Positions 9,356 through 24,610 of a stretch of 29,924 nucleotides of DNA are shown here, piece by piece. Under the pieces are notes generated by a model. That model was not told the origin of the DNA. It did not search any database and was given only the letters and a program-made list of their open reading frames with translations. The stretch is taken from NCBI GenBank assembly GCA_934376945.1, contig CAKRPI010000014.1, positions 1 to 29,924 on the forward strand. The letters run 5' to 3'. This DNA comes from an uncultured Lachnospiraceae bacterium. Lineage in GTDB: Bacteria; Bacillota; Clostridia; Lachnospirales; Lachnospiraceae. The first letter of the stretch is position 1. Each line of letters begins with the position of its first letter. The position numbers were made by a program, and so were the translations under genes.

Positions 9356-9417
9356 TAGAGAACAGCAATGGAAAAATGACGTTTCTTACGTTTATTATTG
9401 CCATGAAAATAAAAATA

Positions 9418-9446
9418 TTGCAAACAATAGTGTGTTAGAGTATAAT
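9418..9446 (+). promoter_or_regulatory. Predicted main promoter of the deoxyaminosugar operon
   Basis: TTGCAA (9418-9423), a 17-base spacer, and a perfect TATAAT (9441-9446). It lies in the only sizeable gap (9356-9556) of the sugar cluster. Transcription from about 9453 would give a 5' leader of about 104 bases before the ATG at 9557. Confidence 0.65.
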
Positions 9447-9556
9447 AAAACGCAGAATACTGATTTTATACAAAAGCATAACGAAAGTTGTGGCTGAAAA
9501 AAAGGAATAGATTAACTGTTTCTAAAAAAGAAAAATGGGTAAGGAGCAATAGCTTT

Positions 9557-10594
9557 ATGGTTAGAATTGGCATATTATGTCCTTCAGAAATTGCATTTCG
9601 ACGTTTTCTTCCGGCGCTTGGAAATTGTAAAGAATTTTCTTATGTGGGAGTAGCAGTTGCGGATTGTGATGAATGGTTTGGAGATACTAAACCGGATGAG
9701 ATGGTTTGCAGAGAAGTTCTCGGCAAAGAGCTGGAAAAAGCAAAAAGTTTCCAGGAGAATTATGGCGGCAAGATTTTTTTAAGTTATAGAGAATTGATTG
9801 AAAGTGATGAAATTGATGCAGTTTATATTCCGCTTCCGCCGGCACTTCATTATAAGTGGGCGAAGACGGCGCTTCTTTCTAAAAAGCATGTGATGGTTGA
9901 AAAACCGGCTACGACAGAAAATTCGAAGACGGAAGAATTAATTGCAATTGCATCTGAGCACGGACTTGCCTTGCATGAGAACTATATGTTTGCATTTCAC
10001 AGACAGCTGGAAGAAATCAGTGAGATGGTTGCAGAAAAGAAGCTGGGCGATGTGCGTTTGTACCGGATTAATTTTGGCTTTCCAAGGCGTGCAAAAAATG
10101 ATTTCAGATATGCGAAAAAGCTTGGTGGCGGCGCACTTCTTGACTGTGGCGGTTATACATTAAAATATGCGTCAATGCTTCTTGGTGATACCGCGAGAAT
10201 TGCATATGCGAATCTGAACTATACAGATGAATTTGATGTGGATCTGTATGGTTCTGCTGCGCTTGTGAATGATGCAGGAGAAACGGTACAGGTTTCTTTT
10301 GGAATGGACAACAGCTATAAATGTGAACTGGAAGTATGGGGAAGTACAGCAACACTCCAGACAGGACGTGTGCTGACGGCTCCTGCAGGATTTGTGCCTT
10401 CTTATACGATCACGGATAATCAGGGTGTTACAAATGGAACATTTTCTGCTGATGATACTTTTTCGAAGTCTCTGAATCGTTTCCTGAGCTGTGTAAATGA
10501 CGAAAAAACAAGAACAGAGAATTATGAAGTAATTCACAGACAGGCATTGCTTGTGGATGAATTCGTAAAAAAGGCTGTTTCCTATGGAAAATAA
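9557..10594 (+). CDS. Gfo/Idh/MocA oxidoreductase, probable NDP-sugar 3-ketoreductase
   Basis: A 345-residue NAD(P)-dependent enzyme. The ATG at 9557 has AAGGAG 10 bases upstream. The Rossmann start is VRIGILCPSEIAF. The family Lys is in VEKPATTE (Lys116), and the C-terminal domain has GGGALLDCGGYTL with Asp196 and Tyr200. A Tyr here, rather than the His of many Gfo/Idh enzymes, is consistent with the sugar 3-ketoreductases KijD10, SpnN and TylC1. Those enzymes act right after a 2,3-dehydratase to give 2,6-dideoxy-4-keto sugars, and such a dehydratase is encoded at 12154. The gene overlaps the next one by 11 bases. Confidence 0.8.
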   Translation: MVRIGILCPSEIAFRRFLPALGNCKEFSYVGVAVADCDEWFGDTKPDEMVCREVLGKELEKAKSFQENYGGKIFLSYRELIESDEIDAVYIPLPPALHYKWAKTALLSKKHVMVEKPATTENSKTEELIAIASEHGLALHENYMFAFHRQLEEISEMVAEKKLGDVRLYRINFGFPRRAKNDFRYAKKLGGGALLDCGGYTLKYASMLLGDTARIAYANLNYTDEFDVDLYGSAALVNDAGETVQVSFGMDNSYKCELEVWGSTATLQTGRVLTAPAGFVPSYTITDNQGVTNGTFSADDTFSKSLNRFLSCVNDEKTRTENYEVIHRQALLVDEFVKKAVSYGK

Positions 10595-11018
10595 AAAAGA
10601 ATTTGGAAAGATCCGGTTTAAAATGAATCAGGATCCGGATGGTACGCTTACGGTCGCAGAATGCGGAAACGAGCTGCCATTTCTGGTAAAACGTTTTTTT
10701 ATGATCAGTGATGTTCCGCCTGATGGTAAGCGAGGAGAGCATGCATGTAAAAATTCCGATTTTGTTTATTTGTGTGCGCATGGAAGTGTAAAGGTTTTAC
10801 TGGATGATGGAATCAAAAGAGAAGAATATATTCTTAGACAGGATGAAGGTTGTGGGGTGTTTGTGCCTAAAATGACATGGATGGAGATCTATGAGTTTTC
10901 GGAGGACGCCGTGCTGCTGGTCCTGGCAAGTGAAAAATATGAAACGGGACAGTATTATAGTGACTACACCTGTTTTCGAAAAAAAGTAAGTGAAAGAGGA
11001 AGAGAAAATGAAGAATAA
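10584..11018 (+). CDS. FdtA/WxcM-like cupin, sugar 3,4-ketoisomerase homologue with altered active site
   Basis: A 144-residue cupin matching FdtA/QdtA/Tyl1a, which isomerise dTDP-4-keto-6-deoxyglucose to the 3-keto form. Visible motifs are LPFLVKRFFMISDVP (31-45), RGEHACKN (50-57), GSVKVLLDDG (67-76), VFVPKMTWMEIYEFSEDAVLL (split over 92-112) and VLASEKY. Family members have His-x-His in RGxHAHK. Here the second His is Cys55 (His53 kept), so catalysis may be changed or lost. It overlaps both neighbours by 11 bases, so it belongs firmly to the operon. Confidence 0.8.
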   Translation: MENKKEFGKIRFKMNQDPDGTLTVAECGNELPFLVKRFFMISDVPPDGKRGEHACKNSDFVYLCAHGSVKVLLDDGIKREEYILRQDEGCGVFVPKMTWMEIYEFSEDAVLLVLASEKYETGQYYSDYTCFRKKVSERGRENEE

Positions 11019-12129
11019 GAAACCAATATTAGTAGTAAGTCCATCGTTGCCTCCGATGCAGGAATATTTTGATGAGATCAGCACGATATGGGAGACAAAG
11101 CAGCTGACACATACGGGACCAAAGCATGTAAAGCTTCAGGCTGAGCTTGAAAAATATCTGGATGTAAAGCATGTGGAACTTTTTGCAAATGGTCATCTTG
11201 CACTGGAACTTGGACTTCAGGCGCTTGGACTGACCGGAGAGGTAATTACAACACCGTTCACATTTGCCTCTACGACACAGGCAATTCTTCGCTGTGGTCT
11301 GACACCGGTTTTTTGTGATATCAATCCGGATGATTACACAATGGATGTAGATAAGATCGAAGCATTAATCACAGATAAGACGAGCGCGATTCTTCCGGTT
11401 CATGTATATGGAAATATCTGTAATGTGGAAAGGATTGAAGAGATTGCGAAAAAGCATAATCTGAAAGTGATTTATGATGCTGCCCATGCCTTTGGTGAGA
11501 CGTACAAAGGAAAAAATGCGGCAGCTCTTGGTGACATGTCCATGTTTAGTTTTCATGCGACAAAAGTATTTAATACTGTAGAAGGTGGATGCCTGTCTTT
11601 TGCAGATGATTCCTATGTGCAGACTTTGATCAGTCTCAGACAGTTTGGACAGACCCTTCATACAGATCACGTTCCGCTGGTCGGTACAAATGCAAAGATG
11701 ACAGAAATGCATGCGGCAATGGGATTATGCAACCTTCACCATGTAGATGAGTACATTGAAAAACGTGCAGAGGTATTTGCATGTTACAGAGAACGTCTCA
11801 GCGGTGTTCCTGGAATTAAGCTTTGTGCTCCGCAGAAAGATGTCAAGAGCAATTATGCGTATTTCCCGGTTGTTTTTGATTCAGAGAAATTTGGTGCAAC
11901 GAGAGATCAGGTAGCAGATCTGCTTCAGAAAGAGCAGATTTTTGCAAGAAAATACTTCTACCCGCTTACAAGTGATTTTGAGTGCTGCAAGGAGCGCGGA
12001 ATTACGGCAGATGTACCGGTTGCTGAGTATATGGCATCGAATGTTCTTACACTTCCGTGCTTTTCAGATCTGTCTTGCGAGTCAGTCAATGAAATTTGTG
12101 ATATCATACTTTCTGCTACAGAAAAATAG
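11008..12129 (+). CDS. DegT/DnrJ/EryC1/StrS PLP-dependent sugar aminotransferase
   Basis: A 373-residue enzyme that transfers an amino group from glutamate or another donor to a keto-sugar nucleotide. The ATG at 11008 follows AGAGGA; an in-frame GTG at 10990 is less likely. PLP-site motifs are complete: TTPFTFASTT (81-90), Asp157 in YDAAHAFG, and the Schiff-base Lys186 in SFHATKVFNTVEGG. It resembles the VioA/FdtB/QdtB branch. With a 2,3-dehydratase and a ketoreductase next to it, the likely product is a 4-amino (or 3-amino) 2-deoxysugar. C3 versus C4 cannot be decided from sequence. Confidence 0.88.
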   Translation: MKNKKPILVVSPSLPPMQEYFDEISTIWETKQLTHTGPKHVKLQAELEKYLDVKHVELFANGHLALELGLQALGLTGEVITTPFTFASTTQAILRCGLTPVFCDINPDDYTMDVDKIEALITDKTSAILPVHVYGNICNVERIEEIAKKHNLKVIYDAAHAFGETYKGKNAAALGDMSMFSFHATKVFNTVEGGCLSFADDSYVQTLISLRQFGQTLHTDHVPLVGTNAKMTEMHAAMGLCNLHHVDEYIEKRAEVFACYRERLSGVPGIKLCAPQKDVKSNYAYFPVVFDSEKFGATRDQVADLLQKEQIFARKYFYPLTSDFECCKERGITADVPVAEYMASNVLTLPCFSDLSCESVNEICDIILSATEK

Positions 12130-12153
12130 AAAATACGGGTTGAGGGCGTGAAA

Positions 12154-13542
12154 ATGAAAAGCGATATTATCAAGATTCTTAAGTCGTGGAAAGAACGCAA
12201 CAGTAAGTTTAATTCAACGGAATCATTGATTAGCTGGATTGAGCAGATGAATAAAGTGACAGATGTTCAGATCCAGAGGATAGATTTTACAAAAGCAAAT
12301 GACTGGTATTTTAATCCGGAAAATGGGTATATAGAGAATCATGAAAACCGCTTTTTTTCCGTAAGAGGGATTAAATATTATGAAGACGGTAAATTGATTC
12401 AGGAACAGCCGATTATTTATCAGCCTGAGATCGGTTATCTTGGGATTATTTGCAAAGAATTTGATGGTGTGATGCATTTCTTGATGCAGGCAAAGGTGGA
12501 GCCTGGAAATGTGAACTGTGTTCAGATTTCGCCGACGATTCAGGCAACAAAAAGTAATTTTGAGCAGGCGCACGGCGGAAGAGTGCCTTATTACTTTTCC
12601 TATTTCAAGAATGCGCAGAAATATGAGATTATATTTGACCAGATACAGTCAGAGCAGGGAATGCGTTTTTACCGAAAACGAAATCGAAATATTATGATAC
12701 TCGTAGATGAAGAGATCGAAGTATTGCCTGCATTTCGTTGGATGACGCTTGGACAGATCAAGGAATTGATGAAACTTGATAATCTTGTAAATATGGATAC
12801 GCGTACGGTTTTGTCCTGCATTCCGTTTTCTACCTATTCATTCAGCCAAGAAGAAAAAGAAGAGATAAAAAACTATATTGAAGATGATGCATTGTTTGCA
12901 TCAATGTTTCTGGCAAATATCCAGGATGGATTAGATCGGGTTTTTAACTATCAGAATAATATAAAGATGTTCAGAAATATCAGTTCGAAGTTGGCACCGC
13001 TGAATTCACTGGAAACATGGAAGGTAAATAGAGATGGTGTTTTTTGTGAAAAGGCAGCAAATTTTGATGTAGGTTATTATGATATTGCAATATCGGGAAG
13101 AGAAGTAAAAAGCTGGAAACAGCCTCTGGTCTGTGCAAAGGGAATGGGAATATTTGGTATGATGCTTTGCCATCATGAAGGAATGCTGAAATTTCTGGTT
13201 GCAGTACGGACAGAGATTGGAGCTTTTGATAAAGTGGAAATTGGACCTTCTGTATTTTTAGAACCAGTTTCTAATGCGGAACCGGATTTTGTAGAGAAAC
13301 TGTTTAAAGAAAAAATGGAAAAGCAGGAAGGAATTTTGAAAGACAGTATCTTTTCCGAAGAAGGCGGACGCTTTTATCATGAGCAGAATCGCAATGTTAT
13401 AATGATGGTTGATTATATTGAGCCAGAACAGTTGCCAAATGGATATTTTTGGCTTTCTTTTGGAAGTTTAAACAGCCTGATTCAAATTAACAACTGTCTC
13501 AATATTCAGCTTCGAAATTTGCTCAGCATTATTGATGTCTGA
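12154..13542 (+). CDS. NDP-hexose 2,3-dehydratase (TylX3/SpnO/EvaA family)
   Basis: A 462-residue enzyme that removes water across C2-C3 of dTDP-4-keto-6-deoxyglucose, the entry step to 2-deoxysugars. The ATG at 12154 follows GAGGG. The protein is an internal duplication. The first half has ENRFFSVRG (65-72), GVMHFLMQAKVEPGN (105-119) and ISPTIQATKSNF (125-136). The second half repeats the pattern with SGREVKSWKQPL (314-325), GMLKFLVAVRTEIG (343-356) and IGPSVFLEP (363-371). This two-repeat Nudix-like layout is typical of EvaA. The family is best known from actinomycete antibiotic sugars, which makes its presence beside surface-glycan genes notable. Confidence 0.88.
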   Translation: MKSDIIKILKSWKERNSKFNSTESLISWIEQMNKVTDVQIQRIDFTKANDWYFNPENGYIENHENRFFSVRGIKYYEDGKLIQEQPIIYQPEIGYLGIICKEFDGVMHFLMQAKVEPGNVNCVQISPTIQATKSNFEQAHGGRVPYYFSYFKNAQKYEIIFDQIQSEQGMRFYRKRNRNIMILVDEEIEVLPAFRWMTLGQIKELMKLDNLVNMDTRTVLSCIPFSTYSFSQEEKEEIKNYIEDDALFASMFLANIQDGLDRVFNYQNNIKMFRNISSKLAPLNSLETWKVNRDGVFCEKAANFDVGYYDIAISGREVKSWKQPLVCAKGMGIFGMMLCHHEGMLKFLVAVRTEIGAFDKVEIGPSVFLEPVSNAEPDFVEKLFKEKMEKQEGILKDSIFSEEGGRFYHEQNRNVIMMVDYIEPEQLPNGYFWLSFGSLNSLIQINNCLNIQLRNLLSIIDV

Positions 13543-13558
13543 TGGAAAAAATTGTATA

Positions 13559-14641
13559 ATGAAAAAATATGCGTTTTATATAACGAACCACGGATTTGGG
13601 CATGCATCCAGAAATATTCCCTTGATAGAGGGAATTCTGGAGCGCGAGCCTGAGTCCATAATTTATGTAAAGACAGATGCAGTTCGGTGTGAATTTATAC
13701 GACGAAATTTGAAAGCTTATATTGGAAATATCCGTTTTTGCGAAGAATACCAGGATGTAGGTTTGGTATTACAGAAAAACAGCTATGAAATTGATGTTCA
13801 AAAATTAAAGAAAACTGTTGCAGAAGAACAGAAAAGATGGCATACTTATGGACAAACAGAGATTCAATTTTTGAAAAAACACAAGATAGATTTTGTTGTA
13901 TCAGATATTATTCCGTGGATTTTACCGGCAGCACGAAAATGCGGAGTACCGTCTGTCCTTTTGTGTAATTTCACCTGGTATGAAATGTATAAAGATTTTT
14001 TACCAGAGGAGCTATGCCTTCCATACAGAGATGCGTATCGCTGTGCAGATAAGATATTTGTATATGAGTTTGCAAATCCGCTGATCGATGTTATTTATCC
14101 GGGATGTGAAAGAGTATCGATGCTGTGTCGCAAAGTAAATGAAGAAAAGGCAGCTGAAATTGCTAAACAGTATCCGCATCCGATTGTGTTTGTCAGTGTT
14201 GGAAAATCGATCGAGATGCATCAAAGTTATGATGTGTCAGATGCACCGGGAACATATTTGATAACAGCAGGTGTACAGCTATCGGGAAATAATGTGATAC
14301 AGCTTCCGGAAAATCTTATCAATACACAGGATTATCTGAGGGCCTGTGATTATGCGATCATAAAAGGCGGCTGGTCTACGATGGCAGAGGTTCTCCTGAA
14401 TAAACGTAAGGCTGCAGTAATTTTACGTTGCAGTAATTCAGAGGATGATGCAGTTCGTCAGATGATTCATAACTATGCCTGCATGCAGGAAATTTCTTTT
14501 GAGAATCTTACACAGATGAATGAAGTTCTGGAGAAAATAGAAAACATAAAAAAGGATGTATTTGCAAAGTTTAAAGATGATAAAGAAACAATACTAAATT
14601 ATTTTATAAATCATGAATCGATAAGAAAATCAAACATTTGA
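13559..14641 (+). CDS. GT-B glycosyltransferase (GT1/MurG-like)
   Basis: A 360-residue soluble or peripheral enzyme without membrane segments. The N-terminus YAFYITNHGFGHASRN (4-19) has the GxGHxxR loop of GT-B enzymes such as MurG. The C-terminal donor pocket is CDYAIIKGGWSTMAEVL (263-279). The start is uncertain: ATG 13559 keeps the conserved MKKYAF start, while ATG 13535 would overlap the dehydratase by 8 bases, and neither has a strong ribosome site. In this context it probably transfers the deoxyaminosugar or an adjoining sugar. The acceptor is unknown. Confidence 0.72.
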   Translation: MKKYAFYITNHGFGHASRNIPLIEGILEREPESIIYVKTDAVRCEFIRRNLKAYIGNIRFCEEYQDVGLVLQKNSYEIDVQKLKKTVAEEQKRWHTYGQTEIQFLKKHKIDFVVSDIIPWILPAARKCGVPSVLLCNFTWYEMYKDFLPEELCLPYRDAYRCADKIFVYEFANPLIDVIYPGCERVSMLCRKVNEEKAAEIAKQYPHPIVFVSVGKSIEMHQSYDVSDAPGTYLITAGVQLSGNNVIQLPENLINTQDYLRACDYAIIKGGWSTMAEVLLNKRKAAVILRCSNSEDDAVRQMIHNYACMQEISFENLTQMNEVLEKIENIKKDVFAKFKDDKETILNYFINHESIRKSNI

Positions 14642-14657
14642 AAGCAGGAGAAGAGTA

Positions 14658-15602
14658 ATGAAAAAGTTTTCTATTGTATTGCCGATTTATGGGAATGAAA
14701 AAAATCTTCCGGTAACAATACCTTATATTATAGACCATTTAGATCTGTTCTCTAATTATGAAACAGAGATTATCATGGTATGTGATGGCTCACCGGATAA
14801 TTCATATGAAGTAATGAAAGAATTTCAAAAAAAGTATCCAAAACTGATTCGAATTGCAAAGTTCACAAAGAATAATGGCCAGCGAGCCGCTGTAAATTGT
14901 GGCATGGCAATGGCTCGCGGTGATGTAATAGGAGTTATTTCAGCAGATTTGCAGGATCCGTTTGAATTATTTACCGAAATGCTTGCTTACTGGGAGCAGG
15001 GGGAAAAGCTCGTATTGGCAAAGAGAGAGGATCGCGCTGAAAAAGGGATAGCAGCAATGTGCTCCAAATTCATGCATAAATTGATCCATAAGTATGTAAG
15101 CTCAAATTATCCGGATGGGGGGTTTGACTTTTTTGTTGTGGATCGTTCGATTGCGCAGGCATTTATTCAATCTGATACAATAAATAATTCCATGCAATTA
15201 TTATTGCTTGAACTCGCAGGAAAAGGAAAGTGGATCGGATATACAAGGAAAAAGAGAGAAATTGGAAAATCAGGCTGGAGTTTAATTAAAAAACTGAACC
15301 AGGTGGTTAATATTATAACGATATATTCAATAGCACCATTTTACCTTTTGGCTGGAATTGGTGGAGTCAGTATAGTAGTTAGCCTGATATGTTTTATCTT
15401 TAAAATTGTGGATATTATTCGCTTTGGCTTTGAGCATGGGTATGCTGGTCTATATAGTGCATTGTTTATAGTCTCGGGTATTTTGTGTGAAGCGATTGCT
15501 CTTTTTGGAATATATATGTTTAAATGGATGCAGAATATGCGCAAAGTACCGCGTTACATCGTTGAAGAGAAGATTGATGAAATGGAGCTAGATAATAAAT
15601 GA
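14658..15602 (+). CDS. GT2 polyprenyl-phosphate glycosyltransferase (DPM1/GtrB/CsbB-like)
   Basis: A 314-residue enzyme with a GT-A domain (1-about 215) and two C-terminal membrane helices (about 226-252 and 265-290). The nucleotide and metal motifs are FSIVLPIYGNE (4-14), VCDGSPDNS (41-49) and SADLQDP (95-101); NNGQRAAVNCGMAMARGD precedes the last. This architecture is that of dolichol-P-mannose synthase-like enzymes that load one sugar onto undecaprenyl phosphate at the inner membrane face. AGGAGAAG precedes the ATG. Together with a GtrA flippase (4254) and YfhO (18594) it would complete a CsbB/GtcA/YfhO-type glycosylation set. Confidence 0.85.
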   Translation: MKKFSIVLPIYGNEKNLPVTIPYIIDHLDLFSNYETEIIMVCDGSPDNSYEVMKEFQKKYPKLIRIAKFTKNNGQRAAVNCGMAMARGDVIGVISADLQDPFELFTEMLAYWEQGEKLVLAKREDRAEKGIAAMCSKFMHKLIHKYVSSNYPDGGFDFFVVDRSIAQAFIQSDTINNSMQLLLLELAGKGKWIGYTRKKREIGKSGWSLIKKLNQVVNIITIYSIAPFYLLAGIGGVSIVVSLICFIFKIVDIIRFGFEHGYAGLYSALFIVSGILCEAIALFGIYMFKWMQNMRKVPRYIVEEKIDEMELDNK

Positions 15603-16255
15603 TACTTGCAATTTATGGAACAGGCGGAGCTGGAAAAGAGACATTACAGGTTTCTCTGGATATAAAAAGGGCAGGAGCAAAGTGGCAGTCGATTGTATTT
15701 ATTGACGATACAAAACCGACAGGCAAATTTAAAGGTTACGAGATGCTTCCATATGTGGAATTTAAAGAAAAATATGGGACAGAAAAAGTAGAAATACATG
15801 TAGCCCTTGGCGAAGTCAGTTCAAAAAGAACAGTTGCACAGAAAATGTTGGCAGACGGGTATCAGTTGGCAACATTGGTACATCCGCGAGCACATATTGG
15901 TAAAAATGTTGTGATTCATCCAGGAGCCCAAATTAAAATGGAGGCAGTAATCGGTGATAATGCAGTCATTGGTATAGGAAGCTGGATTCAGGCCTATACA
16001 ATAATTGCTGACAGCTGTCGGATCGGGGCGTTTTGCCAGATTGGCGCAAAGGCAGTCCTTGGTGAAAATTGTTGCATTGGAGATACGGTTTTTGTTGGAA
16101 TGCATGCCGTGATTTCAAATAATATTGAGGTTCAAGAAGATGTGATCGTCGGAATGGGAGCTTGGGTAAATCAGGATTTACAGTCATATGATACTTGTAT
16201 TGGCAATCCGTGCAGAGTGGTTAGTAAAGATAAAAATCATCGTGTTTTTGGGTGA
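15599..16255 (+). CDS. Left-handed beta-helix acyltransferase, NeuD/PglD-like, catalytic His missing
   Basis: A 218-residue protein beginning inside the GT2 stop (ATGA overlap). It has an N-terminal Rossmann-like domain (IYGTGGAGKETL, 5-16) and a C-terminal hexapeptide beta-helix (about 95-207; IGKNVVIHPGA, IGDNAVIGIG, IGNPCRVV). This is the PglD/NeuD fold, which N- or O-acylates sugar nucleotides. The catalytic His expected in the HDxxIG position is replaced: residues 137-145 read ADSCRIGAF. The tandem neighbour keeps HDSKLG. It may therefore be a non-catalytic partner or use another base such as His169. Confidence 0.78.
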   Translation: MILAIYGTGGAGKETLQVSLDIKRAGAKWQSIVFIDDTKPTGKFKGYEMLPYVEFKEKYGTEKVEIHVALGEVSSKRTVAQKMLADGYQLATLVHPRAHIGKNVVIHPGAQIKMEAVIGDNAVIGIGSWIQAYTIIADSCRIGAFCQIGAKAVLGENCCIGDTVFVGMHAVISNNIEVQEDVIVGMGAWVNQDLQSYDTCIGNPCRVVSKDKNHRVFG

Positions 16256-16266
16256 GGAGAAATGGA

Positions 16267-16854
16267 ATGAAGTTAATAATATTATCGTTTGATTATACCG
16301 GAAAGAACGTAGAGGCACTGGCAGAAGAAATTGGGAAATGGGAAAGCATTCAGATGGTTTCGTGTCAGGATCAGGAAGAGTTAGAAGTCAGTCAGGCAAA
16401 AGATGTTGAATATATAATTGCGTCAGATAAGCCGGAGATGCGGGAAAAGGTCTTTATGAATTTAAAGGATAAAAATGTGCAGATAGCGACATTGATTCAT
16501 CCGGAAAATTACATAAGTGAAGGCACGGATATTGGAGCAGGATGTATTTTACATAGAGGAGTAATCGTCTATTATGATAGTACGATAGGAGAAAATACAG
16601 TGATGAAAGAGTATTCGTCTCTTTCACATGACTCGAAACTTGGAGAACATTGTGTTATAATGGAAAAATGTACAATTGGTGGCTATTCCCAGATAGGAAA
16701 TAATGTTTTTTTCTCAGCGGCAACGGTTGCAAAAGATGAATTGGTGATTGGAAATAATGTGTGTACCAATCCGGGTGCAGTAGTTATGAAAGATATAGAA
16801 CCGGATCAGACTGTAATGGGAAATCCGGCTAGAATAATAAGAAAAGAGAGGTAG
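16267..16854 (+). CDS. Left-handed beta-helix acyltransferase, NeuD/PglD-like, intact active site
   Basis: A 195-residue paralogue of the preceding gene. The ATG at 16267 has GAGGAG seven bases upstream; an in-frame GTG at 16252 overlaps the upstream stop. A short N-terminal Rossmann-like part (1-about 75) is followed by a hexapeptide helix (76-190; IHPENYISEGTDIGAG, IGENTVM, IGGYSQIGNN). The presumed catalytic His121 sits in SLSHDSKLGEH. It probably transfers an acyl group to an aminosugar nucleotide. The ACP and ligase directly downstream suggest an ACP thioester donor rather than, or besides, acetyl-CoA. Confidence 0.82.
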   Translation: MKLIILSFDYTGKNVEALAEEIGKWESIQMVSCQDQEELEVSQAKDVEYIIASDKPEMREKVFMNLKDKNVQIATLIHPENYISEGTDIGAGCILHRGVIVYYDSTIGENTVMKEYSSLSHDSKLGEHCVIMEKCTIGGYSQIGNNVFFSAATVAKDELVIGNNVCTNPGAVVMKDIEPDQTVMGNPARIIRKER

Positions 16855-16861
16855 AGTAGGT

Positions 16862-17098: not shown

Positions 17099-17110
17099 GA
17101 GGCATGAAGT

Positions 17111-18508
17111 ATGTTTCGAAATTTTGGAGAACAATGCGCAGTTATAGATGAGAAAGGACAGAAGTATTCATATAATCAGATTTTTGAAGATGTTGAAGCT
17201 CTTTATAGCCACATCGGAAGGCGCTGTTTGATATTTATTATGTGCAGAAACGTGAAAGATTCTCTTGTTGGATACGTATCCTCCATCAATCATCACGTTG
17301 TACCATTGCTTCTTTCAGCAGAGCTGGATGAGGAGCTGTATACACATTTAAAAGAAACGTATCATCCGGAATATATTTGGGCTCCGGCAGGAAGCGGATA
17401 TACAGATGGGATGGAGTGCGACTGGATATTAGACGATTATGGACTGTATCACACTGGCCTTGAGCCGTATGCACTGAATGAGAAGCTGGCATTACTGCTG
17501 ACGACATCTGGTAGTACGGGAAGTCCGAAACTGGTAAGGCAGAGCTATGAAAATATCCGTGCGAACACAGAGTCGATTGTAGAGTATCTGGAGATTACAC
17601 CTTCGGAAAAGCCGATCACTTCCCTGCCAATGAATTATACGTACGGTTTGTCAGTTATTAATACACATCTTTATACAGGCGCCACTATTTTGATGACAAA
17701 CTATGCGGTTGTACAAAAAGAATTCTGGCAGATTATGCGGGAGCAGGGAGCCACTTCTATTGCAGGAGTACCATATACTTATGAGATGCTGAACCGTTTA
17801 AGATTTTTCGGGATGGATCTTCCGGCGCTCAAAACGATGACGCAGGCAGGCGGCAAGCTTTCTCCGGAGCTGCATCGTAAGTTTGCGGAGTATGCGTCAG
17901 AGAAAAAGAAGAGATTCATTGTAATGTACGGTCAGGCTGAGGCAACTGCACGAATGGCTTATTTACCGGCAGAACGGTCACTTGAAAAGTATGGAAGCAT
18001 GGGAATCGCAATTCCGGGTGGCCGATTGGAGCTGATCGATGTAAATGGAAACGTAATTGAGGAAGCAGATACCGTCGGAGAGCTTGTATATTACGGTAAA
18101 AATGTAACTCTTGGTTATGCACAGAAAGGCGAAGATCTTGTCCTTGGCGATGAAAGAAATGGACGTCTTATTACTGGGGATATGGCAAAGCGTGATACAG
18201 ATGGTTTTTATTATATTGTAGGAAGAAAGAAGAGATTCCTGAAGATATTCGGAAACCGCGTGAATCTCGATGAGACAGAGAGAATGCTGAAGACGCATTT
18301 CCCGGAAAATGATGTGGCATGTGCCGGCGTCGATGATAAGATGTATATATTTGTCACAGAAGATCTGGATGAGGCGGAGCTACGAAAATATTTGTCTGAA
18401 AAAACAGGCTTGCATATCAGTGCATTCTGTGTAAAGAGAATCGAGGAGATTCCGAAAAATGATGCCGGGAAGACGCTCTATAAAGCACTTGAGCAGTATT
18501 ACAAATAA
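17111..18508 (+). CDS. AMP-forming acyl--ACP ligase (ANL superfamily)
   Basis: A 465-residue adenylate-forming enzyme. AGGAGG lies eight bases before the ATG. Motifs in order are LLTTSGSTGSPKLVRQS (P-loop, about 129-145), SLPMNYTYGLSV (about 175), VMYGQAEATARMAYLP (about 275), NGRLITGDMAKRD (about 350), GRKKRFLKIFGNRVN and the catalytic Lys region IPKNDAGKTLYK (near 455). It activates a carboxylic acid as an adenylate and, by context, loads it on the adjacent ACP. At 465 residues it is a stand-alone A-domain-like ligase, similar in size to DltA or FadD relatives. The substrate pocket cannot be read with confidence, and no DltB/DltD are present. Confidence 0.87.
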   Translation: MFRNFGEQCAVIDEKGQKYSYNQIFEDVEALYSHIGRRCLIFIMCRNVKDSLVGYVSSINHHVVPLLLSAELDEELYTHLKETYHPEYIWAPAGSGYTDGMECDWILDDYGLYHTGLEPYALNEKLALLLTTSGSTGSPKLVRQSYENIRANTESIVEYLEITPSEKPITSLPMNYTYGLSVINTHLYTGATILMTNYAVVQKEFWQIMREQGATSIAGVPYTYEMLNRLRFFGMDLPALKTMTQAGGKLSPELHRKFAEYASEKKKRFIVMYGQAEATARMAYLPAERSLEKYGSMGIAIPGGRLELIDVNGNVIEEADTVGELVYYGKNVTLGYAQKGEDLVLGDERNGRLITGDMAKRDTDGFYYIVGRKKRFLKIFGNRVNLDETERMLKTHFPENDVACAGVDDKMYIFVTEDLDEAELRKYLSEKTGLHISAFCVKRIEEIPKNDAGKTLYKALEQYYK

Positions 18509-18525
18509 AAAAGTAGTGTAGAAAA

Positions 18526-18556
18526 GTGCTTGAGATCTGTAAAAGATCTTAAGCAC
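18526..18556 (+). terminator. Hairpin between ligase and YfhO genes
   Basis: A 13-bp stem with one G-U pair, GTGCTTGAGATCT (18526-18538) against 18544-18556, loop GTAAA, then ATTTTGC. The T-tract is short, so it could be a partial terminator or an RNA-stability element. It sits in the longest gap within this part of the cluster and might lower expression of YfhO and genes beyond. Confidence 0.55.
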
Positions 18557-18593
18557 ATTTTGCATAAGAAAAAAAGAAGAAAGTAGGTCTTAC

Positions 18594-21449
18594 ATGAGAA
18601 AGAAACTGACTTCTGGAGAAAACATATATAAAAAGTATACGATACTGTTTTCGATATTTTTTGTATGTGTTTTTTCTGTTTTTTCAATCTATGGAAAATC
18701 TTATTTGTGGAGTTCGGACGGAATGGGGCAGCATTATCCGTCTGCTGCGTATTCACATAAATGGATTGTTGATATTGTCAAGAATTTTTTTAAGACAGGA
18801 AAGCTTCACGTTGCGTTGTGGGATTTTTGCCTTGGATTTGGACAGGATGTTTTTGGAAATGCCATTAATTTCCGCCCGATGAATTTTCTGATGTGCTTAT
18901 TCCCAAGCGCACAAATAGAAGCTTTTTTATTTGTAAGGACGATATTAAGCTTATACCTGGTCGGAATCGCATTTATTGCATTTGCAAAGACGAAGACAAA
19001 TGATCAGGACGCACTTCTGATTGGAAGTATGGTTTATACCTTTTGTGGTTTTTCTCTCTATTTTGCGGCGCGTCACACATTTTTCTGTGAAATGATGTTT
19101 TATTTACCGCTTATGCTGATGGGAGTAGACCGCATTCTGGAAAAGAAGAAAAGCTGGATTTTTATATGGATGGTCTTTTTCAGCGTGATCAGCTACTTTT
19201 ACTTCCTTTATATGGTGACAATTCCTGCAGTGATTTATGCAGTGTTTCGCTATTTCGAAGTGCGGGAAAAAGAACAGCAGAGTGTTGCAGATTTCTTCAG
19301 GACGATTTTAACCTTTGCAGTTCATTATTTGATTGCACTTATGCTTGGTATGTTCAGCCTGCTTCCGTCTTTGATCCGTACACTGCAAAGCAGCCGGACA
19401 AGCGCACAGACTGGAATGAATTATCTTATTCATGAGACAGCCTATTATCTGGATTTTGTTCGCGGTGTGATAGATACGACGGAAATCGGAATTTATGGCC
19501 ATATGGCGTTTTCCGGCATTGCTGTTTTTTGCCTGTTATACATGATTTTTAAGAAGCATAAGGACAGACGGCTGTATCTTGGACAGATGGCAGTGTACAC
19601 GCTTGTTTATCTGATTCCGCTTCTGGCGATGGTATTCAGTGGGTTTGCTGGTAGTACGCAGAGATGGTGCTTCATCTATGCCTTCTGGATTTCCATGATT
19701 GTGGTAGAAATGCTGCCGGGATTTTGTAAAAAAGATGTGCCGATCATGCTGAAAAGCAGTCTCTGCACAGTAGGATATCTTGTTGTATATTTGCTGGTGG
19801 TGCGGGTACAGCGTTCCGAAATGGGTTCAGGCGTGATCTGGCTCGTTGTTTACCTGCTGATTCTTATGGTGATCAATCTTACATCCTTTTTCGAACAGAA
19901 AAGAAGACTGTTGAGTGTATGTTTGCTGCTTGTACTCTGTGCAGAGACAACGATGAAATCATATGAATTGTTCGGGACAGACGGGGAAGGTTATATTAAG
20001 TCATACCATGACAGCGGTAAAGTAATAGAAGCCGGAAGAGATAATGCGGCTTCCGCAAGATACATGGTTGATGACGATTCGGTATATCGAATCGATGCAG
20101 TACAGGGAAATCTGTCGGAAAAATATCAGCAGGTAAACTACGGCTTCCGCGATCGTGTTCCTGGGGTGTCGAGTTATTATAGTTTTTCTTCGGGCTGGAT
20201 TTCGGATTATTCAATTGGACTTGGAAATTCACAGCAGAACGTCAGCTTTTTAATCCTGGATCTAGATCAGCGGACGGTATTAAATGAGCTGGCTGCGGTA
20301 AAATATGTGGCAACGACGGAGGAGCGCTCAGACAGGGTACCTTATGGATATAAGCTTGTCGGGAGCAATGTAAAGACTTATTCTGACGGTCATACGGAGA
20401 ACCAGTATCTTTATGAGAACGAATATGCACTTCCGCTGATGTATGTGTATGATTCTTGTATTTTGGAATCAGATTATGAAGAAATGCAGACTTACGAAAA
20501 GGAACAGGCGATGCTGCAGGGACTGGTTCTTGAAGATGATGTTCAGCAGGAGATGGATTACAAAAAGTCGGATGTAAAATTTGATTATACAGTTCTGATG
20601 GATCAGGACGAAATACTTCAGCAGCTAAAAGAAAAGGCAGAAAAAAATGACAATATTGAAGTCTATGACGACCATTTTGAGGTAACAAAAAACAATGCAT
20701 CTATTTCCCTGAACGTGGATCAGGAGGAGACCGGCGAAATTTACTGGGTTATGAATAACGTCCGGTATGATTCTGTGAATCTAATGGAAAAGGAACTGGA
20801 AGCACTTGGTGAGGATGCTACTACCTATGCAAAACAGCTGATTCGTGAAAAGTATAACGGGTGGTCAGAAACAAAGTCTGCCTTGATTACAGTAACGATG
20901 GGGAAACTGTACGATACGTGTCCTCTTTTAAATAAAACTCACCAATATTATTTTGGAGAACGTGATATTTTGATGAATCTCGGTTATGCGAAATCAGGAT
21001 CATTAAAATTAACATTTAATCGTGCAGGAGTCTATTATTTCAAAGATCTTCAGCTGGTATGCCAGCCGATGGATGAATATGAGGACCGGGTAGCAGAATT
21101 GAAAAAAACGCCGGTGAGTGAGATCAGCGTTGCCGGAAATTCAATCAGAGGGGTCGTCACGGCAGATGACAAGAAAATGGTTTGCATTGCTGTACCGTAT
21201 GCAACTGGCTGGAGCGCGTATGTAAATGGGAAAAAGGCAGATGTATATCGTGCAAATGGCATGTATATGGCGGTTCAGGTGGAAGCTGGAGAAAATGAAA
21301 TTATATTAAAATATCGGACTTCCGGATTAATTGCCGGTACTGTTGTTTCGACTGTAACCGTATGCGTGTTGGTGGCTCTGTGGTATGTATATGATGGACC
21401 TGGAAAGAAGAGAAGGCAGAGAAAAAAAGGAAAGCAGGAAAAAGAATGA
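18594..21449 (+). CDS. YfhO-family GT-C membrane glycosyltransferase
   Basis: A 951-residue membrane protein. An N-terminal helix is followed by SSDGMGQHYPS (about 41-51, the acidic GT-C loop), then about 11-12 membrane helices to about residue 460, a large outer domain (about 470-900) and a last helix (about 910-935) with a basic tail. Features such as FCLGFGQDVFGNAINFRPMN (split over 80-100) and YATGWSAYVNGKKADVYRAN (862-881) are typical of YfhO (PF09586). In Bacillus and Listeria, YfhO-type enzymes transfer a sugar from undecaprenyl phosphate to lipoteichoic acid outside the cell, with a CsbB-type GT2 and a GtcA/GtrA flippase. All three classes occur in this window. Confidence 0.85.
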   Translation: MRKKLTSGENIYKKYTILFSIFFVCVFSVFSIYGKSYLWSSDGMGQHYPSAAYSHKWIVDIVKNFFKTGKLHVALWDFCLGFGQDVFGNAINFRPMNFLMCLFPSAQIEAFLFVRTILSLYLVGIAFIAFAKTKTNDQDALLIGSMVYTFCGFSLYFAARHTFFCEMMFYLPLMLMGVDRILEKKKSWIFIWMVFFSVISYFYFLYMVTIPAVIYAVFRYFEVREKEQQSVADFFRTILTFAVHYLIALMLGMFSLLPSLIRTLQSSRTSAQTGMNYLIHETAYYLDFVRGVIDTTEIGIYGHMAFSGIAVFCLLYMIFKKHKDRRLYLGQMAVYTLVYLIPLLAMVFSGFAGSTQRWCFIYAFWISMIVVEMLPGFCKKDVPIMLKSSLCTVGYLVVYLLVVRVQRSEMGSGVIWLVVYLLILMVINLTSFFEQKRRLLSVCLLLVLCAETTMKSYELFGTDGEGYIKSYHDSGKVIEAGRDNAASARYMVDDDSVYRIDAVQGNLSEKYQQVNYGFRDRVPGVSSYYSFSSGWISDYSIGLGNSQQNVSFLILDLDQRTVLNELAAVKYVATTEERSDRVPYGYKLVGSNVKTYSDGHTENQYLYENEYALPLMYVYDSCILESDYEEMQTYEKEQAMLQGLVLEDDVQQEMDYKKSDVKFDYTVLMDQDEILQQLKEKAEKNDNIEVYDDHFEVTKNNASISLNVDQEETGEIYWVMNNVRYDSVNLMEKELEALGEDATTYAKQLIREKYNGWSETKSALITVTMGKLYDTCPLLNKTHQYYFGERDILMNLGYAKSGSLKLTFNRAGVYYFKDLQLVCQPMDEYEDRVAELKKTPVSEISVAGNSIRGVVTADDKKMVCIAVPYATGWSAYVNGKKADVYRANGMYMAVQVEAGENEIILKYRTSGLIAGTVVSTVTVCVLVALWYVYDGPGKKRRQRKKGKQEKE

Positions 21450-22150
21450 AATTGTTTTGTATTCCGTTTGCCGGTGGAACTGCACAATTTTTTAAACCAT
21501 TGGAAGAGGTTTTGAAAAATCGGATTGAAATATATGCGATTGAGTATGCAGGGCATGGATACCGGACAAAAGAGCCTTTCTATAAAACATTTGATGAAAT
21601 GGTGGAAGATGTGGCTGGACAGATCAGAAGGAAATTGAAGCCGGGCGATCAATATGCTTTGTTTGGCTATAGTCTTGGAAGCCTGGTGGCTTATGAAACT
21701 GCAAGAAGAATGGGAGCAATGCACGTGTTTTTGGCAGCGCATGCAGCACCGAGTATTCGAAGCGTGAAAAAGGGATTTCATGACTTGCCGGATGAAGAAT
21801 ATGCGGATGTACTTTCAGGATATGGGGACATTGATCCGCGGATTCGAAATAACAAGCGCTTTTTGAATCTTTATCTTCGTCCAAGCCGCGCAGATTATGC
21901 GCTTTTGGAAGAGTATCCGTTTGATGAAAAGCACCCTGCAGTGGCGACCGGTGCAACGATGTTTTATTCATCGGAAGATACCGGATTTGAGACAGTCAAA
22001 CCATGGAAAGAGTGTTTTAGTGAAAGGTTTGAGTGGATTGAGCTGAGTGGAAAGCATTTTTTCCTCAGACAGCATTTAAAAGAAATAGCCAACATAATAG
22101 AAGAAACAATAAAAGAAACGGGGCAGCCAGGTCAGAAATCGGGTTGCTAG
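21446..22150 (+). CDS. Type II thioesterase (alpha/beta hydrolase)
   Basis: A 234-residue cytoplasmic hydrolase overlapping the YfhO stop as ATGA. The family pattern is clear: LFCIPFAGGTAQFF (3-16), nucleophile Ser76 in FGYSLGSLVAYETAR, Asp178 in SSEDTGF and His204 in GKHFFLRQH. Such enzymes free misloaded acyl groups from carrier proteins, normally beside NRPS or PKS genes. Here the only carrier is the free ACP at 16862, so it may edit that ACP or release its cargo. The TAG stop (22148-22150) lies inside the end of the inverted-repeat element, so the last residues may have been changed by its insertion. Confidence 0.85.
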   Translation: MKLFCIPFAGGTAQFFKPLEEVLKNRIEIYAIEYAGHGYRTKEPFYKTFDEMVEDVAGQIRRKLKPGDQYALFGYSLGSLVAYETARRMGAMHVFLAAHAAPSIRSVKKGFHDLPDEEYADVLSGYGDIDPRIRNNKRFLNLYLRPSRADYALLEEYPFDEKHPAVATGATMFYSSEDTGFETVKPWKECFSERFEWIELSGKHFFLRQHLKEIANIIEETIKETGQPGQKSGC

Positions 22151-22310: not shown

Positions 22311-22339
22311 GAGTATCAATCGAAGGAAAGGAGCAAAAA

Positions 22340-23284
22340 ATGGGAAAGAAAGTATCTATAATTGGTGCAGGAAATGTTGGTTCTGCAGTTGCATATACGC
22401 TTGCAATGCAGTATGAAGATATAGAAGAACTGCTGCTGATTGATATAAACGAAAAGAAAGCAGTCAGTGAAGCATTGGATATTGAACAGAGTACCGCTTC
22501 ACGTGCGCCTGTTTGCGTGCGCGCAGGAAAATATGCAGATGCTGCAGGATCGGATTTTGTGGTGATCACGTCCGGAATTGGAAGGCGGGCAGACCAGAGC
22601 AGGCTTGACCTTATACAGACGAATGTTAATATTATGAAAGAGATTACGCCTGAAATTGTGAAAGCAGCGCCAAATGCAAAATATATTATTGTGAGCAATC
22701 CGGTTGATATCACAACGTATGTGTTCCTTAAGCTGTCCGGACTTCCGGAGCGGCAGGTAATCGGAACAGGGACACTGCTTGACACGGCGCGGCTGCAGTG
22801 TGCACTTAAGAGTTACAGTCAGACAGATTCAAAAAACGTTCAGGCTTATGTGCTTGGTGAACATGGGGATACATCATTTATTCCCTGGTCATTAGTAAAA
22901 ATTTCAGGTATGGGTTATGAGACGTATTCCAAAAGCATGAAAGCAGAAGGAAAAAGTATGCCTGACCAGGATTTGCTGATGGAATATGTGCGTAAATCCG
23001 GTGCAAGGGTTATTTCAGGAAAAGGCTCTACTTCTTATGCAATTGCGTCAGTAGTCAGTCGACTGTACAAAGCATTGACAGGTTCAGACGATGTTCTTGT
23101 TCCGGTTTCTGTGATGATGCATGGAGAGTATGGAATTGAGGATGTTTGTATCAGTATCTTTACACGGTTAAATAAAGACGGGAATTGTGGAGTTGTTCCG
23201 ATTCGGCTTACTACAGATGAAATACGTCAACTGAAAAGTAGTGCGGATACATTGCACGAATGGACTGAAAAAATAGAATTTTAG
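22340..23284 (+). CDS. L-2-hydroxyacid dehydrogenase of the LDH/MDH family
   Basis: A 314-residue NAD-dependent enzyme. The ATG at 22340 follows AAAGGAG; the open frame reaches further up into the inverted-repeat element. Motifs are GAGNVGSAVAYTL (9-21), Asp148 and Arg151 (GTLLDTARLQ), and catalytic His175 (GEHGDTS). The specificity loop reads SGIGRRADQSRLDL. The position equal to Gln102 of lactate dehydrogenase is Arg82, as in malate dehydrogenases, so a plain lactate dehydrogenase label may be wrong. It is followed after 11 bases by the flippase gene. It may supply a 2-hydroxyacid for the ACP/ligase module. Confidence 0.85.
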   Translation: MGKKVSIIGAGNVGSAVAYTLAMQYEDIEELLLIDINEKKAVSEALDIEQSTASRAPVCVRAGKYADAAGSDFVVITSGIGRRADQSRLDLIQTNVNIMKEITPEIVKAAPNAKYIIVSNPVDITTYVFLKLSGLPERQVIGTGTLLDTARLQCALKSYSQTDSKNVQAYVLGEHGDTSFIPWSLVKISGMGYETYSKSMKAEGKSMPDQDLLMEYVRKSGARVISGKGSTSYAIASVVSRLYKALTGSDDVLVPVSVMMHGEYGIEDVCISIFTRLNKDGNCGVVPIRLTTDEIRQLKSSADTLHEWTEKIEF

Positions 23285-23295
23285 AGGGAGATACC

Positions 23296-24570
23296 ATGAG
23301 ATTTTTGTTTGAAAATAAAAAAATGTCGGTTCAGCAAAGCAGTTATATCTGGAATATGACGGCAGGAATGATTTTTGGTTTTCAGTCCGTATTTTTACTT
23401 ATGGTAATCACACGAGCGCTCGGACTTTATGAAGCCGGGCTGTTTACGATTGCATATGCAAATGCGAATCTTTTTCTGACCATTGGAAAATATGGAATGA
23501 AAAATTATCAGGCAACCGATGTGAAGAATCAGTTCAGCTTTGGCGAGTATCTCACATCAAGATACCTTTCCAGCGCAGCAATGATTGTTGTCTCCGCCGG
23601 GTATATTCTGTATACAGGACATACCCTGGACTACACAAAAGAAAAAATGCTGATCATTTTCTTTATGTGTTTGCTCAAAGTGGTTGATGCGATGGAAGAT
23701 GTTTATCTTGGCTGGTATCAGCTGAAAGGAAGACTGGATGTTGGCGGAAAAATTATGACGCTGCGTCTTATTTCTACTATGCTCGTCTGGATTGCGGGGA
23801 TGATTATTCTGAAAAGTCTTCTGTATTCCCTGATTGTGGCATGTGTATTCTCTGTCATTGTCCTGATCTTTTTTGTGAAGGAAACTTATCCTCAGTTCAA
23901 AGAGGATAATAAAAAAGAAAGTGTTCAGTTTGGAAAAGTATGGAAACTTCTGGGCATCTGTTTTCCTTTATTCCTGGGTACTTTTTTGGCATTTTACATA
24001 GGAAATGCGCCGAAGTATGCAATTGATGCGCAGCTTACGGATGAGGTGCAGGCATGCTATGGATTTATTTCGATGCCTGTATTTATCATTGGTCTCTTGA
24101 ATGGATTTATTTACCAGCCGATTCTTACACAGCTTGCTGTTTTATGGAAAGAAAAAAAGGTAGCTGTTTTTGTGAAAAAGGTATTGCTGGAGTGCGTTGT
24201 GGTTGCAGGAATCACGGCAGCTGCGTTGATTGGAGGATATTTGCTTGGAATACCGGTTCTTTCGATCCTGTACCATACAGATCTGACGGATTACAAGGCG
24301 GAATTGCTGATTCTGCTTGTGGGAGGCGGTTTTCTGGCATTGTCTGGCTTCCTTCTGGTCGCTCTTACGATTATCCGTATGCAGACGATCAGTGTGGTCG
24401 GATATTTGATCACAGCAGTTCTGGCATATATACTGTCACCGGTAATGGTAAGAAAAAGTGGCGTGATGGGAGCTTCTGTGCTGTATACCTTGCTGATGCT
24501 GCTGCTTGCGGTGCTGTTTGCGATTATGATGGCATATAAATTGATTTCTGCGATAAAAGAGAAAGACTGA
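23296..24570 (+). CDS. Wzx-like oligosaccharide flippase (MATE/MOP superfamily)
   Basis: A 424-residue polytopic protein with about 12 membrane segments. GAGGGAG precedes the ATG. The N-terminal SSYIWNMTAGMIFGFQSVFLL and TRALGLYEAGLFTIAYA are typical of polysaccharide-biosynthesis exporters, as is the later SMPVFIIGLLNGFIYQP. Wzx proteins flip undecaprenyl-diphosphate-linked oligosaccharides to the outer face. Its presence means the cluster may export a whole repeat unit, not only a single sugar. No Wzy polymerase or initiating phosphosugar transferase is recognised in the window. Confidence 0.82.
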   Translation: MRFLFENKKMSVQQSSYIWNMTAGMIFGFQSVFLLMVITRALGLYEAGLFTIAYANANLFLTIGKYGMKNYQATDVKNQFSFGEYLTSRYLSSAAMIVVSAGYILYTGHTLDYTKEKMLIIFFMCLLKVVDAMEDVYLGWYQLKGRLDVGGKIMTLRLISTMLVWIAGMIILKSLLYSLIVACVFSVIVLIFFVKETYPQFKEDNKKESVQFGKVWKLLGICFPLFLGTFLAFYIGNAPKYAIDAQLTDEVQACYGFISMPVFIIGLLNGFIYQPILTQLAVLWKEKKVAVFVKKVLLECVVVAGITAAALIGGYLLGIPVLSILYHTDLTDYKAELLILLVGGGFLALSGFLLVALTIIRMQTISVVGYLITAVLAYILSPVMVRKSGVMGASVLYTLLMLLLAVLFAIMMAYKLISAIKEKD

Positions 24571-24610
24571 GAAACGGTCAAAACGGGAAACGCCGGAAAA
24601 AGGAGGCTGT

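Follow-up and report, generated by a model that had tools for sequence, protein, structure and literature searches.

The DNA considered here, which we call the window, is a stretch of 29,924 nucleotides from an uncultured Lachnospiraceae bacterium (contig CAKRPI010000014.1, positions 1 to 29,924, assembly GCA_934376945.1), and it carries a set of eleven genes predicted to make an acylated 2-deoxy aminosugar and to place it on the cell surface. The plus-strand genes are continuous from 8690 to 26350, and in the tight part of this run, from the Gfo/Idh gene to the ligase gene (9488-18508), the intergenic gaps range from -29 to +18 bases, which is the layout of one transcription unit. Window proteins were assigned to families with Pfam and NCBIfam profile searches, and the eleven genes are as follows (NDP, nucleoside diphosphate; ACP, acyl carrier protein).

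8690..9355, plus strand: GNAT, weakly WecD/RffC-like (best NCBIfam model PRK10975, 21 bits against a cut-off of 219)
9488..10594, plus strand: Gfo/Idh, predicted NDP-sugar C3-ketoreductase (best solved relative 3rbv, 198 bits)
10990..12129, plus strand: DegT aminotransferase, predicted to be C4-specific (Pfam DegT, 328 bits; best NCBIfam model DesI, 300 bits, below its cut-off of 650)
12148..13542, plus strand: NDP-hexose 2,3-dehydratase (PF03559, 417 bits, cut-off 25)
13532..14641, plus strand: GTx, a GT-B-like glycosyltransferase (no Pfam match itself; relatives match PF13528 or PF04101, partly below cut-off)
14658..15602, plus strand: GT2, predicted polyprenyl-phosphate sugar transferase (PF00535; PgfS, 129 bits, and ArnC-type, 119 bits, both below cut-off)
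15599..16255, plus strand: LbH1, a NeuD/PglD-like hexapeptide acyltransferase (NeuD model, 154 bits, below its cut-off of 160.8; PglD_N, 36 bits)
16252..16854, plus strand: LbH2, a hexapeptide acyltransferase (NeuD model, 125 bits, below the same cut-off of 160.8; His kept)
16862..17098, plus strand: free ACP (PF00550, 16.7 bits, below its cut-off of 20.8; W-D-S-V motif)
17111..18508, plus strand: predicted AMP-forming acyl-ACP ligase (PF00501, 125 bits; all four checked motifs present)
18594..21449, plus strand: YfhO, predicted GT-C transferase to a surface acceptor (PF09586, 340 bits; PgfM2, 69 bits, below cut-off)

The gene cluster is real, beyond chance, because the eleven genes recur together in a second genome. 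G186, a genome drawn from the family (Lachnospiraceae) of Lacrimispora aerotolerans (G005), led us to search 37 genomes of its own genus, two of which have the dehydratase, and one of these two, G411, holds the second copy. There (loci L212 and L213) the order is rearranged relative to the window, namely Gfo/Idh, dehydratase, DegT, GT2, LbH1, LbH2, ACP, GNAT, YfhO, ligase and GTx, with identities to the window proteins of 45%, 52%, 67%, 51%, 45%, 43%, 51%, 39%, 47%, 60% and 36%, respectively. The spacing and this recurrence confirm the dense plus-strand cluster described in a first-pass annotation of the window, and the profiles bear out the family names given in it, with the exception of a flippase at 23296-24570, which matches no Pfam or NCBIfam family even at an E value of 1. 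An integrase-family gene lies upstream of the G411 run. It separates the cassette from a divergent minus-strand run (L212, 1-7656) that holds another ACP, ligase, GNAT and hexapeptide protein, as well as a glyoxalase-like and an ATP-grasp gene.

Other genes and sites in or beside the window run are the following.

4254..4703, plus strand: GtrA-family protein, candidate polyprenyl-phosphate-sugar flippase, outside the set (PF04138, 88 bits)
9418..9446, plus strand: promoter-like site TTGCAA-17-TATAAT, weak (the region has 43 sites of this sort, shuffled sequence 46.3)
10584..11018, plus strand: FdtA-like cupin, accessory (PF05523, 132 bits, cut-off 23)
18526..18556, plus strand: terminator-like hairpin with a 13-pair stem in the interval between ligase and YfhO (17 such sites against 10.3 in shuffles)
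21446..22150, plus strand: type II thioesterase, accessory, predicted to proof-read the ACP (PF00975, 121 bits)
~22337..23284, plus strand: L-lactate/malate dehydrogenase-like (LDH-like) protein, by profile match, probably outside the set
23296..24570, plus strand: putative flippase, so named in the first-pass annotation (no family match; no G411 match)

In 39.9 kb of G411, no match to the FdtA-like cupin, the thioesterase, the LDH-like protein, the putative flippase, GT87 or GtrA was found at an E value of 0.05. Because they are unmatched there, the cupin, thioesterase, LDH-like and putative flippase genes look like accessory, local additions, and the inclusion of FdtA, the thioesterase and the flippase among the pathway parts is not borne out by the second copy; a polysaccharide flippase of another kind was recognized by eye in G411 (L214, 3495-4949). 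A single operon reaching 24570 is made less plausible by the hairpin and by the 186-base gap ahead of the LDH-like gene. Nevertheless, since YfhO sits within the G411 run, we count it in the set despite the hairpin, which may only attenuate transcription. Three genes had been overlooked in the first-pass annotation, namely those for GTx, the LDH-like protein and the GNAT.

As for the sugar-building genes, the Gfo/Idh protein, whose relative 3rbv we take to be the sugar 3-ketoreductase KijD10, retains the Lys of the EKP motif and the Tyr of the GGY motif, the latter being Phe in chain 3rc7. Among solved structures, the DegT protein scores 218 bits with 2po3, which is presumably DesI, a C4 enzyme, 190 with perosamine synthetases and 132 with QdtB, which we take to be a C3 enzyme. 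Because 2po3/DesI is nearest and QdtB far lower, this gene is best read as aminating a 2,6-dideoxy-4-ketose at C4. That the sugar would instead be a 3-amino-2,3,6-trideoxyhexose, with the nitrogen placed at C3 through the cupin or because the 3,4-diketo product is transaminated directly, seems to us decidedly unlikely: an FdtA-like cupin does lie within the run, and antibiotic pathways do include 2,3-dehydratase routes that aminate C3 (EvaB), but the cupin is unmatched in G411, the 3-ketoreductase would remove the C3 ketone and the aminotransferase is nearest a C4 enzyme. The FdtA 3,4-ketoisomerase relies for catalysis on the two His of its H-A-H motif; in the window cupin, the first His is retained and the second is Cys, and WlaRA, which is named a ketoisomerase, has Asn at the latter position. 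With no match in the second copy, FdtA was rejected as a required step.

The dehydratase has a sole solved match, EvaA (292 bits), in which mutating E139 or E190 abolishes activity according to the accessible part of a 2022 review (PMC8987622), and the equivalents of both residues are retained in the dehydratases of the window, L212, L045 (the G186 locus) and L039. The same part of the review states that 3-dehydratases carry His at the position of the Lys that binds pyridoxal phosphate (PMC8987622). The run's one DegT-family gene retains this Lys (SFHATK), and no 3-dehydratase of the SpnQ type is found in the run.

The acyl-handling genes begin with the two hexapeptide proteins and continue with a dedicated ACP, whose W-D-S-V motif is common to its relatives and whose gene adjoins that of the AMP ligase with a 12-base gap. 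In NeuD-type enzymes, the active site lies between subunits and a particular His is catalytic. At the column of this His, LbH1 has Asp in the window and Glu in G411; LbH2 retains His in both genomes and gives no PglD_N match. Thus, although both of the beta-helix acyltransferases named in the first-pass annotation are present, one of them lacks the catalytic residue. As the family's active site is shared between subunits and its features are here divided over two proteins, it is attractive to think that LbH1 and LbH2 are possibly one mixed enzyme in which labour is divided. Single-sequence structure models (mean pLDDT, a per-residue confidence score, of 43 for LbH2 and 46 for LbH1) were too poor and were left unused.

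On sequence grounds, the GNAT is also a core member of the eleven-gene set and a third acyltransferase candidate. WecD/RffC is a dTDP-4-amino-4,6-dideoxygalactose acyltransferase (dTDP, deoxythymidine diphosphate), and in 6 of the 31 other ligase loci (25 fetched of 49 places plus six earlier loci) a GNAT of the window's kind lies no more than 6 kb from the ligase, two of the six having supplied search seeds. It could be that this enzyme N-acetylates the 4-amine from acetyl-CoA and that LbH2 transfers the acyl group of the ACP to a hydroxyl, either on this sugar or on a different one. The GNAT's core position, its weak match to the WecD/RffC-type model and the fact that LbH2 also matches LpxA/LpxD-type models would fit such a division, but we consider it unlikely, given that the GNAT matches far below cut-off, that the best model for both LbH proteins is that of NeuD sugar acetyltransferases (itself below cut-off) and that GNATs recurring near the ligase would fit a user of acyl-ACP equally well. 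A type II thioesterase is near the ligase in 3 of the 31 loci.

In the lactate dehydrogenase superfamily, Arg at the substrate-selecting position favours dicarboxylic substrates. The LDH-like protein has Arg there, likewise 13 of the 15 relatives read (L127-L141), and this clade is perhaps malate-type rather than lactate-type. Its nearest relatives (up to 55% identity) stand in a common context elsewhere that, judging by the lengths of open reading frames, occurs in many Lachnospiraceae. One might propose that the gene makes the acid and that the sugar bears a malyl- or lactyl-type 2-hydroxyacyl group. The gene lies between those of the thioesterase and the putative flippase, 11 bases from the latter, with the Arg just described; moreover, the acid of Vibrio cholerae RfbL is given as 2,4-dihydroxybutanoate in the accessible parts of PMC3441752 and PMC12208996, and an unrelated malate/lactate dehydrogenase gene (PF02615) is found downstream of the L039 dehydratase. 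We nonetheless regard this as very improbable: the relatives, most with the same Arg, share another context, the gene is preceded by the 186-base gap, and G411 has no match. Its candidacy as the source of the acid is weakened by these last and first points alike.

The ligase belongs to a large family, since all 7998 scored candidates pass an E value of 1e-20. Within 6 kb and on the same strand, an ACP is found in 24 of the 31 other ligase loci and LuxE or LuxC in 27; ligase, ACP, LuxE and LuxC, often with a short-chain dehydrogenase/reductase (SDR) and a split transketolase, form a widespread module (L001-L006, L107-L126, L142-L146). For instance, L005 of L. aerotolerans (7424-21359) has ACP, LuxE, LuxC and ligase genes followed by thiolase-, crotonase-, hydroxyacyl-CoA dehydrogenase- and acyl-CoA dehydrogenase-like genes, named by eye. 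Neither cassette copy, in the window or in G411, has a match to LuxE or LuxC. In a tree of 52 ligases, those of the window, G411 and the database protein P0038 fall in one clade of 15 rows (support 99/96), in which none of the loci seen has LuxE or LuxC; 13 of its members are database proteins with neighbours not seen. As the clade contains no locus seen beside these reductase genes, it suggests a branch that would hand the acyl group over instead of reducing it.

Turning to the glycosyltransferases, the dehydratase P0219, the GTx relative P0128 and the ligase P0038 each come from one contig of the same size, 49,981. Contig sizes are shared with a GTx match by 6 of the 37 closest dehydratases and by none of the next 83, counts that are lower bounds because only the best 120 matches were compared; the division between 37 and 83 was set by eye at a step from 58 to 56% identity. 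The shared sizes therefore indicate that GTx goes with this dehydratase group, and we treat it, as far as sequence comparison can tell, as a core gene of the set. Two other GTx relatives (P0166 and P0167) are fused to an FdtA domain, so that some link exists between GTx and the accessory cupin.

GT2 and YfhO would provide a route to the surface. The DegT, GT2 and YfhO genes are also neighbours at L192 and L197, found among 20 loci fetched of 30 DegT places turned into loci; the DegT is DesI-like at both, no ACP or ligase was matched at either, and YfhO-mediated aminosugar display is perhaps common in Lachnospiraceae. We find it barely credible that the product is a released, antibiotic-like small molecule and no surface glycan. 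The 2,3-dehydratases named in the accessible part of PMC8987622 do come from antibiotic pathways, but GT2 and YfhO are both core genes, and no polyketide or peptide scaffold genes are among the families found in the window.

The wider occurrence of the dehydratase was followed in 14 Lachnospiraceae loci, of which 12 came from a search of 397 genomes and the others from G411 and G460; three genomes with partial or weak PF03559 matches (G201, G276 and G366) were left out. G460 emerged from 110 relatives of G175, among which three genomes have the dehydratase, two of them already counted, and searches of the genera around G175, G053, G180 and G171 (1, 1, 2 and 1 genomes) yielded nothing new. At all 14 loci, the dehydratase has a Gfo/Idh gene no more than 9 kb away. 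Only the G411 and G186 loci contain a DesI-like DegT (above 300 bits); each also has ACP machinery, though not the same kind. In the other 12, G460 included, seven ACPs, two ligases, two ketoacyl-ACP synthases III (KAS III), LuxE and LuxC served as queries and matched no free ACP, ligase, KAS III or Lux protein. Thus, the co-occurrence forecast in the first-pass annotation fails over dehydratase loci as a whole (2 of 14) but holds for the loci with a DesI-like aminotransferase (2 of 2).

At the G186 locus (L045), DegT, Gfo/Idh and dehydratase genes stand in a row and are followed by an SDR, KAS III, an ACP, two SDRs, another ligase, a second ACP, a KAS III-like, a GNAT-like and a metallo-hydrolase protein and a NeuD-type acyltransferase that keeps its His, several of these names having been given by eye. 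Therefore, the same sugar genes stand here by a different ACP-based acyl set. The aminotransferases of the window, G411 and G186 form one clade (support 100/100, stem 0.48) apart from the 23 others in a tree of 26 rows.

The remaining 12 loci (L035-L044, L046 and L218) combine dehydratase and 3-ketoreductase with mostly glycan-type neighbours and no DesI-like DegT, and possibly point to 2,6-dideoxyhexose in Lachnospiraceae surface polymers. A branch without amination is not established for all of them, because another DegT-family gene (72 to 173 bits) lies within 9 kb in five (L036, L039, L040, L042 and L043). The closest whole-genome dehydratase locus, L039 (1-14000), also has ATP-grasp, MmgE/PrpD and PF02615 genes, and a weak carrier-like domain (27 bits; PF00550, 16.7 bits, below the cut-off of 20.8) ends an 855-residue membrane protein there; it perhaps represents a third acyl solution.

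These surveys bear on whether two unrelated pathways, a deoxysugar route and an ACP module for a separate residue, are simply adjacent. In the 397 genomes, the ligase (E 1e-60) is found in 45 and a full-length dehydratase in 12, and the only genome with both, G170, has them on different contigs; PF03559 was matched in none of six ligase genomes, in a scan in which no control gave a signal. Set against this are the recurrence of the entire set in G411 in a rearranged order and the presence of ACP machinery in both DesI-like dehydratase loci, so that we judge mere adjacency quite unlikely. Of 72,556 plasmid records, 101 gave a match to the ligase and 83 to the dehydratase, all at less than 60% identity.

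Taken together, we suggest that the eleven-gene set makes dTDP-4-amino-2,4,6-trideoxyhexose, N-acylates it from a dedicated ACP and passes it via polyprenyl phosphate to a surface acceptor, a proposal that we hold to be slightly likelier true than false. RmlA and RmlB, which are required for dTDP-4-keto-6-deoxyglucose, would be encoded elsewhere and supply this precursor; the 2,3-dehydratase, by its family and catalytic residues, would take off the C2 hydroxyl; the Gfo/Idh enzyme, again by family and residues, would reduce C3; and the DesI-like aminotransferase would aminate C4. The ligase, as its adjacency and family suggest, would activate an acid and load the ACP, from which the acyl group would pass to the amine through the GNAT or through LbH1/LbH2, which may work as a single mixed enzyme. 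GT2 would then transfer the sugar to polyprenyl phosphate, a GtrA-type protein would flip it, and YfhO would pass it to the acceptor, as in CsbB/GtcA/YfhO systems; display of the finished sugar through this GT2/YfhO route is the simplest reading. The N-acylation at the centre of this proposal, which the first-pass annotation had also put forward for a 2-deoxy aminosugar on the surface, is backed by the same eleven genes in G411 and by ACP machinery in both DesI-like loci.

Several observations weigh against this proposal. RmlA and RmlB queries had no match in the window (open reading frames of at least 50 amino acids), nor did those for LuxE, LuxC and KAS III among its open reading frames, and the RmlA/RmlB matches in G411 are weak and more than 13 kb away. 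Three acyltransferase candidates (LbH1, LbH2 and the GNAT) compete for the same step, and the LuxE or LuxC genes beside most other ligases imply that acyl-ACP is likely reduced there. Matches to a free ACP and a ligase are absent from 12 of the 14 dehydratase loci, and three of these 12 extend for less than 4.1 kb on one side; machinery of the window's own kind is found in 1 of the 14 and any free-ACP machinery in 2, so that the absence of the ACP and ligase genes from most homologous loci, which the first-pass annotation had named as grounds for refutation, is, to the letter, what we observe. L039 has a different aminotransferase beside its dehydratase, a carrier-like domain only on a membrane protein and no ligase match. 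Finally, the probability that such a split (2 of 2 and 0 of 12) arises by chance is 1 in 91 by hand calculation, but the two positive loci are few and not independent: G411 and G186 belong to one genus, and it was the search of this genus that revealed G411.

A bolder version, rather doubtful in our view but a real possibility, is that of a mobile Lachnospiraceae cassette with a split N-acyltransferase, in which LbH1 binds the nucleotide sugar and LbH2 gives the His, the acyl group coming from the cassette's own ACP and going onto a 4-amino-2,4,6-trideoxyhexose produced by 2-deoxygenation of the antibiotic type, with YfhO display, and with an acyl module swapped among strains of a single genus as the sugar module stays constant.

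Regarding the flanks of the run, the window FtsH shares 85% identity with its counterpart in G175, a Lachnospiraceae genome, and in six FtsH-centred loci from the nearest genomes no further window gene was matched. The region upstream of the run (4254-8550) has genes in one direction for GtrA, PAP2, YbhN-like, CDP-alcohol phosphatidyltransferase and phosphatidylserine decarboxylase proteins. A long repetitive protein of more than 1270 residues (3-3848), open at the window start, is rich in repeated LxxGAxxLxxG-like units, as seen by eye.

The spinosyn forosamine pathway uses a 2,3-dehydratase, a 3-ketoreductase and a C4 aminotransferase (SpnO, SpnN and SpnR), and the window likewise has an intact-site 2,3-dehydratase, a predicted 3-ketoreductase and a C4-type aminotransferase. 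The run differs from the forosamine genes in having neither a 3-dehydratase nor an N-methyltransferase, and its product is predicted to carry an acylated amine and to be bound to the surface. V. cholerae O1 attaches tetronate to the amine of perosamine, RfbL/WbeL being given as the ligase and RfbK as a putative carrier, and the attachment of the RfbL acid to RfbK is called putative in the accessible parts of the sources (PMC3441752, PMC12208996). In both systems, a ligase and a putative dedicated carrier would feed the N-acylation of a 4-amino-deoxysugar; a C4 aminotransferase and a sugar N-acyltransferase are present in the window as judged by family and nearest solved structures. Perosamine is 4-amino-4,6-dideoxymannose, with the C2 hydroxyl kept, and belongs to a Gram-negative O-antigen, whereas the window route would remove that hydroxyl. 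The viosamine island of Pseudomonas syringae similarly uses ACP-linked genes and an acetyltransferase to modify a dTDP-4-aminosugar, but the accessible part of its description (PMC3927599) also names KAS III, a reductase (VioS, VioR) and a methyltransferase, families not found in the window. The KAS III of L045 had no match in the window, and no KAS III or 3-oxoacyl-ACP reductase family was found among the scanned genes; L045, with its KAS III, is closer to this island than the window is.

As far as the accessible text of the sources goes, ACP and AMP synthetase genes also occur in flagellin glycosylation islands of Aeromonas and Enterobacteriaceae, but LuxE and LuxC are named there beside the ACP and ligase (PMC7874193, PMC4875605), and both cassette copies lack these two by our matches. 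As regards display, systems of GT-A, GtrA and GT-C proteins are described as decorating teichoic acids and other polymers, with N-acetylglucosamine, galactose or glucose as CsbB/GtcA/YfhO donors, in the accessible part of PMC8035078. The window and G411 resemble them in having a polyprenyl-phosphate-type GT2 and a YfhO GT-C, but the predicted donor is an acylated aminosugar, and the window GtrA lies outside the set.

Sugars made by 2,3- and 3-dehydratases are placed by the accessible part of the 2022 review in Gram-negative lipopolysaccharide and capsules or in secondary metabolites (PMC8987622). In the open-access literature, in which comma terms such as 2,3-dehydratase are not searchable, none of the matches listed joins a 2,3-dehydratase or YfhO to ACP-fed sugar acylation. 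Our comparison thus suggests that the parts are known, namely RfbK/RfbL-type acylation and CsbB/YfhO-type display, and that their combination with a 2-deoxy aminosugar route is new. 2,3-dehydratases recur in Lachnospiraceae glycan loci, and one branch of them is paired with ACP machinery, in two copies together with YfhO. If the proposal is true, antibiotic-type sugar chemistry would be joined to bacterial surface decoration, YfhO-type decoration would gain a second chemistry, a split acyltransferase may be involved, and this large anaerobic family would offer a biosynthetic route, open to experimental testing, to a surface residue not described before.

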